Assembly: GCF_001424755.1 (NCBI RefSeq) | Contig: NZ_LMRF01000001.1 | Coordinates: forward strand, 1,210,140 to 1,274,139 | DNA length: 64,000 nucleotides | Reading direction: 5' to 3' | From: Marmoricola sp. Leaf446 | GTDB lineage: Bacteria > Actinomycetota > Actinomycetes > Propionibacteriales > Nocardioidaceae | Shown: positions 19,858-21,096 of the stretch, piece after piece | Position numbering within the stretch: the first letter of the stretch is position 1 | Layout: each line of letters starts with the position of its first letter | Translations under genes and position numbers: made by a program | Notes under the pieces: generated by a model | The model's input: only the letters and a program-made list of their open reading frames with translations | The model's database searches: none | Told to the model about the DNA's origin: nothing

Positions 19858-19937
19858 CCGGTTTCCCAGGTGATGAACCCGAGCTGCCTCCTCGCACACG
19901 TCGCGTCGTGTGCGAGGAGGCAGTTCGCTGTGCGGGG
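19858..19937 (+). repeat. Left copy of 80-base inverted hairpin repeat
   Basis: This block aligns without gaps to the reverse complement of 21017-21096, with 66 of 80 bases identical. The outer 25 bases (19858-19882) are identical. It contains a hairpin with a perfect 17-base-pair stem (19884-19900 with 19907-19923) and a six-base loop. The triplet pair CTC (19891-19893)/GAG (19914-19916) is replaced by TGT/ACA in the other copy, so pairing is kept. It begins 26 bases after the lpd stop and may also act as its terminator. Confidence 0.88.
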
Positions 19938-20042
19938 TACGCCGGGCGCCACCTCGCCTCCACAGGCGAGCTCGGTACCCGCCTCGTCCACAGATCCCGG
20001 CGGCTGCTGGGCCGCGCTGCCCGACCGGCCGACCCTCGTCGC

Positions 20043-20990
20043 ATGGACGACCCCTTGCGCGTCATCGCGCTGACCGACGGAGTGTTCCTGCGCCGCGAGG
20101 CGCTGGAGTGCGGCTACGACGACAAGACCATCGCCCGGCGGGTGCGTGGCGGCGAGTGGCACCGCGTCCGGCACGGCGCCTACTGCTTCGGCGACACCTG
20201 GCGCACGAGCACCCCCGACGAACGGCACCTGCTGCTGGCGCGCGCGGTCCTGCGGACGACACCGGGGCCGGTGGCGCTCAGCCACACCACGGCGCTGCTG
20301 GCCCACGGGGTCGCGGTGTGGGGTGCCGACCTCTCGCGGGTCCACGTCACGCGACTCGACACCGGGGCCGCCCGGCGCGAGAAGGACGTCGTCCACCACG
20401 TCGCGGCGTGCAGCGACGACGACGTCGAGACCGTCGGCGACGTCCCGGTGCTCGGCGTGGCGAGGTCGGTCGTCGAGACCGCGACGGTGACCGGGCTGGA
20501 GTCGGCCCTGGTCTCCGCCGACTCGGCCCTGCACCTCGAGAAGACCGAGCGCGACGAGCTGCGGCGCACCTTCGCGGGCATGACGCACCGTCCGGGAGCC
20601 CAGAAGATCCACGTCGTGCTGCACCACATGGACGGGCGGTCGGAGTCGCCGGGGGAGACCCGCGCGGCGTACCTCTTCTGGCGGCACGGCCTCCCGCGCC
20701 CCGCCCGGCAGCACGCGGTGCGGGACGCCTCCGGGCGCGTGGTCGCGCGGGTCGACTTCGCGTGGCACGAGCACGGCGTGTTCGGCGAGTTCGACGGCCG
20801 CGTCAAGTACGGCCGCTACCTCCGCCCCTGGGAGCTGCCCGGGGACGCGGTGTTCCGGGAGAAGCAGCGCGAGGACCTGGTGCGCGAGCTGACCGGCTAC
20901 CGGTTCGTGCGGCTGGTGTGGGCCGACCTCGAGCACCCGGAGCAGACCGCCGCCCGGGTGCGCGCCGTGCTGGCGCGCCTGGCCGCCTGA
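20043..20990 (+). CDS. AbiEi-like N-terminal domain plus DUF559 (Vsr-like) nuclease-type domain
   Basis: A 315-residue protein with an N-terminal winged-helix/AbiEi-antitoxin-like region (VFLRREALECGYDDKTIARR, then WHRVRHGAYC and ALSHTTALLAHG). It has a C-terminal DUF559 domain related to very-short-patch-repair endonucleases. Candidate catalytic residues of the PD-(D/E)xK kind are ESPGETRAAY, VDFAWHEHGVFGEFDGRVKY and the ending YRFVRLVWADL. Such proteins are widespread in actinomycetes, often annotated as type IV toxin-antitoxin components, with no proven function. The ATG at 20043 follows GACCCT by six bases. The gene is framed on both sides by an 80-base inverted hairpin repeat, and no toxin partner gene is adjacent. 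Confidence 0.85.
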   Translation: MDDPLRVIALTDGVFLRREALECGYDDKTIARRVRGGEWHRVRHGAYCFGDTWRTSTPDERHLLLARAVLRTTPGPVALSHTTALLAHGVAVWGADLSRVHVTRLDTGAARREKDVVHHVAACSDDDVETVGDVPVLGVARSVVETATVTGLESALVSADSALHLEKTERDELRRTFAGMTHRPGAQKIHVVLHHMDGRSESPGETRAAYLFWRHGLPRPARQHAVRDASGRVVARVDFAWHEHGVFGEFDGRVKYGRYLRPWELPGDAVFREKQREDLVRELTGYRFVRLVWADLEHPEQTAARVRAVLARLAA

Positions 20991-21016
20991 GCGTCGTACG
21001 CCGGAGCAGGCGGTCT

Positions 21017-21096
21017 CCTCGCACGCAGAACTGCCTCTGTGCACACGACGTGGTGTGTGCACAGAGGCAGTTCGGGTTCATCACCTGGGAAACCGG
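21017..21096 (-). repeat. Right copy of 80-base inverted hairpin repeat
   Basis: The reverse complement of the block at 19858-19937 with 14 substitutions and no gaps. Its hairpin has an 18-base-pair perfect stem (21029-21046 with 21055-21072) and an eight-base loop. The outer 25 bases (21072-21096) are identical to the left copy. Seen from sucB on the minus strand, the repeat begins 22 bases after the stop, nearly the same spacing as the left copy after lpd. It could serve as the sucB terminator. Confidence 0.88.

Follow-up and report, generated by a model that had tools for sequence, protein, structure and literature searches.

Why does a gene for an AbiEi-type protein with a nuclease-like C-terminal part lie between two inverted copies of one hairpin repeat, in the gap between two convergent ORFs of the lpd and sucB type? 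Here, we take up this question for the window, i.e., the whole 64,000-nucleotide stretch of the Marmoricola sp. Leaf446 genome that was analysed, and follow the gene and its repeats through the window genome (G000), the related genomes of the genus, and a wider set of Actinobacteria. The evidence suggests that the unit represents a hitherto undescribed form of self-spreading DNA, in which a nuclease of the repair type takes the place of a transposase.

The unit is 1,239 bp long and its two arms are inverted copies of each other, identical at 66 of 80 positions in an ungapped alignment and exact over the outer 25 bases (i.e., as far as 19882 on the left), a geometry that the earlier note had described and that our analysis reproduced to the base. 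In each arm, a terminal repeat of 20 bases precedes a hairpin (Table 1), and none of 200 dinucleotide shuffles equaled either hairpin in DNA folding (z −6.46 and −5.48). Only one gene is enclosed. The flanking ORFs carry Pyr_redox_2 and 2-oxoacid_dh domains, respectively, and their names, lpd and sucB, are taken from the earlier note together with this domain content. With flanks of 400 bp, the inverted-repeat score of the window gene was 40, and a score of ≥20 arose in 1 of 3,000 random placements, the pool for which included regions with real elements, such that this single match may be real itself. A comparison with known RNA families returned nothing but sub-threshold microRNA hairpins.

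Table 1 Features of the gene-bearing unit and the adjoining ORF ends, in window positions
Feature	Positions	Strand	Remark
End of lpd-type ORF	19831		
Whole unit (gene between two arms, each with terminal repeat and hairpin)	19858–21096	+	Gene-bearing counterpart at the same site in G002
Left arm, 80 bases	19858–19937	+	
Left terminal repeat, 20 bases	19858–19877	+	Common to the other 15 genome copies with ≤1 mismatch, left side
Left hairpin	19880–19927	+	DNA folding
Gene, 315 aa, AbiEi-type and predicted Vsr-like parts	20043–20990	+	
Right arm, 80 bases	21017–21096	−	
Right hairpin	21028–21073	+	DNA folding
Right 20-base terminal repeat, matching the left one in inverse orientation	21077–21096	−	
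End of sucB-type ORF	21119		

The encoded protein combines an AbiEi-type N-terminal part (residues ~1–185) with a predicted Vsr-like PD-(D/E)XK nuclease (~200–311). For the former, PADLOC AbiEi models match residues 6–184 (E 3e-20), AbiEi_4 is the sole Pfam match, and the confidently predicted structure (mean pLDDT 92.7, pTM 0.88) retrieved the Streptococcus agalactiae AbiEi (E 1.8e-5) and Rv2827c (E 3.2e-5) in Foldseek searches. The earlier designation as an AbiEi/DUF559 gene is refined in that the window protein matches AbiEi_4 only; among 80 homologs, AbiEi_4 was found in 71 and DUF559 in 3 at E ≤ 0.1. For the C-terminal part, Foldseek found Vsr with a probability of 0.99 and a TM score by target of 0.53–0.55, yet with weak E-values of 0.08–0.12. 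The catalytic-type residues are E205, D238, E249, D251, and K255, and four positions (E205, E249, D251, and G252) do not vary among the 80 aligned sequences, with D238 and K255 kept in ≥90% of them; together with the predicted structure, this conservation suggests a Vsr-like nuclease. The 80 homologs matched 12 Pfam families, and neither a Y1 (HUH) tyrosine transposase nor a DDE transposase family was among them. Sequence searches against solved structures gave only the Bax1 nuclease (E 0.14), NCBIfam gave no family for the four proteins searched, and PHROGs gave none. A phage or plasmid origin was considered and rejected, as none of 50,697 phage records had a homolog and only 2 of the 72,556 plasmid records did. 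One homolog, L180:4001–4927, has one in-frame stop and is possibly a decaying copy.

Bracketing by inverted repeats goes with the gene family, beyond the window gene. In the genus set (36 homologs, two of them at loci too short to score), 30 of 34 scored genes reach an inverted-repeat score of ≥22 with 400-bp flanks, and in the wider actinobacterial set (the best 80 loci from a scan of species genomes, four of which were too short) 52 of 76 reach ≥20 against 0 of 1,599 control placements drawn from those loci. Some genes belong to both sets, and when the 78 bracketed genes were collapsed at 97% identity, 68 were left. Bracketed genes occur in Nocardioidaceae, Propionibacteriaceae, Aeromicrobium, Jiangellaceae, Nakamurella, Pseudonocardia, and Blastococcus, among others, with the arms at a median distance from the matched frame of 129 bases upstream and 61 downstream. 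The 24 of 76 loci below threshold in the wider set include all those of Rhodococcus, Prescottella, and Tomitella; a gapped search of these 24 loci, in which two Prescottella loci rose to 19, brought three more to ≥18, above all 206 controls. No bracket was found around L038, a paralog in the window genome. When the flanks of different genes were crossed, 35 of 1,122 pairs still scored ≥20, because some ends are related.

The window's own ends are dispersed. In the 3.8-Mb window genome, the terminal repeat stands at 16 places, 15 of which enclose no gene, and the reversed pattern, used as a control, had no match there. Ten copies are exactly 92 bp long, two are 112 bp, one is 156 bp, one is the gene-bearing unit, and two are single-armed; each 92-bp copy is a single long palindrome, made of two opposed ends with a hairpin between them. 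Among 24 genus genomes, the repeat (≤1 mismatch) was confined to G000 and G002, apart from one lone match with one mismatch in G023. For 26 copies, gene orientation was read roughly from G+C at third positions; the neighbouring genes were convergent at 11 copies, in line at 12, and divergent at 3. The outside flanks of the 16 copies seemed complementary, as if insertion had been into pre-existing hairpins, but this was rejected, as own pairs averaged 8.56 and crossed pairs 8.93, and 3,864 of 5,000 permutations were as high as the own pairs.

All six of the end families searched are likewise dispersed in their own genomes. The ends of the paralog L034 recur at ~20 places in G000 and those of L032 at no fewer than 35, while the ends of L073 (the G001 gene at the lpd-sucB junction) gave 22 matches at ~11 places in G001, none in G000 or G002, and three weak ones in G014. 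Further afield, gene L241 of Blastococcus has ends that recur at 8 places in the genome that carries it and at none in three others, and the ends of L236 from Pseudonocardia spinosispora gave 80 matches at ~40 places (both strands counted) in its own genome and none in three others. The association also runs from repeat to gene: two inverted pairs of L032-type palindromes ~1.2 kb apart, chosen from the repeats alone (G000 C1:706928/708105 and G002 3693520/3694685), each enclose a gene of the same superfamily. Elsewhere in G000 (L256, C1:1013241–1013733), three L032-type palindromes stand in a row with a spacing of ~225–230 bp, which recalls a BIME-like array.

Genes and ends co-diverge. Over the 68 non-redundant genes, protein identity correlated with end similarity (Spearman 0.316; 0 of 2,000 permutations as high), and end similarity falls to near the shuffled background below ~50% protein identity. 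Strict cognate specificity of gene and ends is doubtful, because L032 and the distant L036/L255 group carry the same palindrome within one genome (three G000 genes, with L262:977–2174 and L255:1429–2642), a sharing that may reflect exchange of genes between ends. G002 has L034-type copies, and no L034-like gene was among the matches listed there at a cut of 1e-60.

Comparison of G000 with G002 revealed presence and absence of the element at orthologous places. Seven of the 16 G000 sites are common to G002; of the rest, the tracing covered four of nine G000 sites and one of the two sites found in G002 alone (L006, L012, L013, L016, and L021 in G000 and L053 in G002 lay outside the tracing), and at five of five traced sites the element was absent from the other species. 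L010 is the sole clean short empty site among the five, with L005 and L045 diverged. At the place of L008, which in G000 is a 92-bp copy, G002 has a different AbiEi-type gene (L099:3497–4815, G002 C1 near 536.5–537.8 kb) with inverted repeats of its own (score 54) that are unrelated to the window type, and where G000 has the single-armed copy L019, G002 carries a short tandem array (L097:11650–11793). At the five traced sites, most of which are diverged or hold other sequence, we saw no target-site duplication, and a search there for a precise empty site bearing such a duplication found none.

The lpd-sucB junction itself also varies. The gene adjoins sucB in 3 of the 23 genomes in which sucB was found, namely G000, G001, and G002. 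G002 carries the same gene-bearing unit, with 98.5% identity to G000 in lpd, 99% in sucB, and 88% in the nuclease, while the G001 gene is bounded by a different repeat family absent from G000; here identity is 91% for lpd, 94% for sucB, and 58% for the nuclease, and the nuclease gene therefore evolves faster than its neighbours. In six further genomes lpd lies outside the stretch covered. Among the 14 visible gene-less junctions, six have a hairpin (score ≥12) of differing sequence, at L285 (G018), L269 (G013), L281 (G019), L286 (G022), L280 (G011), and L284 (G004), and eight have none. By eye, the G018 unit resembles the window's left arm, and the units in G013 and G004 resemble the ends of genes that these genomes themselves carry, L075 and L086, respectively. 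Single palindromes of differing families occur at this junction as if it were a preferred landing place. The earlier note had named two findings as speaking against its reading, i.e., repeat copies with no link to such genes and gene-less junctions that always carry both repeats. The first is borne out to the extent that 15 of 16 copies are gene-less; the second is not, given that the gene-less junctions have a single hairpin (6/14) or none (8/14) instead of both repeats.

We consider the unit to be, more likely than not, the gene-bearing member of a REPtron-like family of elements with a different enzyme, because all of the features by which Nunvar and colleagues tied the spread of REPs to RAYTs are found here with a protein that has no Y1 domain. 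As set out in PMC2817692, these features are inverted flanking palindromes, dispersed cognates, co-divergence, fast evolution, and a repeat abundance tied to the gene. As in RAYT systems, the gene lies between two inverted palindromes whose cognates are dispersed (6/6 families), gene and palindromes diverge together (with the exception of L032 and L036/L255, which share ends), the gene changes more quickly than those beside it, and repeat abundance goes with the gene; the earlier remark that the layout recalls REP-associated transposases thus gains support from the family-wide bracket, the dispersed ends, and the AbiEi and Vsr fold matches. Unlike REPtrons, the units here have long ends of ~80 bp and an AbiEi protein with a predicted Vsr-like nuclease, and a Y1/HUH domain was found in none of the 80 homologs.

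Other known systems each share part of this arrangement. MITEs that accompany a DDE insertion sequence resemble the present family in that short copies lacking a gene share terminal repeats with a longer unit that has one, but no DDE family was among the Pfam matches of the 80 homologs. The predicted nuclease fold resembles that of the Vsr repair endonuclease (probability 0.99, but weak E-values of 0.08–0.12), which acts in T:G mismatch repair and is found beside a cytosine methyltransferase; the neighbours here are lpd and sucB. Vsr-like (EDxHD) homing endonucleases couple a nuclease gene to sites through homing as well, and both they and Vsr differ from the present case, a standalone gene with an AbiEi part and ends dispersed as palindromes. 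TIRtrons, in which a TIRYT transposase gene has long terminal inverted repeats that may form repeat families, according to PMC3733652, are similar in both of these respects and differ in that theirs is a tyrosine transposase, to which the enzyme here is unrelated.

Under the REPtron-like reading, the AbiEi-type part would recognise the hairpin ends of its own element, and the Vsr-like nuclease would nick or cut them, whether as duplex, as cruciform, or as single-stranded hairpin. The repair or replication machinery of the host would go on to copy the ends, either alone or along with the gene, to further intergenic positions, such that gene-less copies would build up as short palindromic units, here mostly of 92 bp, and gene and ends would diverge together, faster than neighbouring genes. 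That the protein binds and cuts its ends is suggested by its nuclease residues and by analogy with the S. agalactiae AbiEi, which binds inverted repeats, as described in PMC3985639; we infer further that the nuclease itself drives the copying and spread of the repeats. As the earlier note proposed, the unit may move, or the nuclease may act on the hairpins. More broadly, we lean, with reserve, toward a class of mobile or self-propagating DNA, widespread in actinobacteria, whose palindromic ends are recognised and spread by the element's own AbiEi-Vsr nuclease in place of any transposase; this would be an invention independent of REP/RAYT, with several families within a single genome.

A rival explanation is homing, with the nuclease cutting gene-less palindromes at other places, homologous recombination copying the gene-bearing unit in, and the palindromes spreading by other means. 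Gene-bearing and gene-less states at one site (the gene in 3 of 23 genomes at lpd-sucB and a single hairpin at 6 of 14 gene-less junctions) and the likeness by eye of the G018 unit to the window's left arm would suit it, but the G002 gene at the L008 place has ends unrelated to the window-type palindrome found there in G000 and so did not home into that palindrome, and homing leaves the 15 gene-less copies at unrelated sites unexplained; we regard it as rather unlikely. The palindromes might also be spread by an unrelated activity, or be terminators or chromosome sites, with the protein a host regulator that binds them and its nuclease irrelevant. AbiEi proteins are DNA-binding repressors acting on inverted repeats, according to PMC3985639, and the placement of copies (11 of 26 convergent, 12 in line, 3 divergent) is such as terminators might show. 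Against this stand the catalytic residues conserved over 80 homologs (E205, E249, and D251 invariant), the repeat families that track particular genes and differ between species with a common site, and the lack of any Y1 or DDE family among the homologs' Pfam matches, and we hold this explanation to be unlikely.

It is very improbable that the gene belongs to an AbiE type IV toxin-antitoxin or phage-defence system with operator inverted repeats at its promoter. Though the N-terminal part is of AbiEi type in fold and sequence (PADLOC, residues 6–184, E 3e-20), the 1,239-bp unit holds no second gene, neither an AbiEii nucleotidyltransferase nor another partner toxin; the repeats flank both sides of the gene and recur at 15 gene-less places, and the C-terminal part is predicted to be nuclease-like. 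Ordinary terminator hairpins around an unrelated gene by coincidence would find some footing in the convergent neighbours, as intergenic hairpins are common in such places, but this is already contradicted by the control placements (0/1,599 vs 52/76 genes), and the chance left to it is negligible.

In our searches of a library of open-licence papers, 12 of which mention DUF559, we found no description of AbiEi/DUF559 genes bracketed by dispersed palindromes. If the REPtron-like reading is true, dispersed bacterial palindromes can arise via a nuclease unrelated to transposases, and the families described here would offer many natural pairs of enzyme and site for biochemistry. One REP superfamily (CGTC) apparently has no dedicated transposase, according to PMC3733652, and the AbiEi-Vsr arrangement would show another kind of enzyme to look for in such cases. 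The many standalone AbiEi/DUF559-type genes that are at present annotated as antitoxin or unknown would also gain a role. The window genome has four further DUF559 matches, at C1:1342279, C2:454108, C3:95454, and C6:165368.
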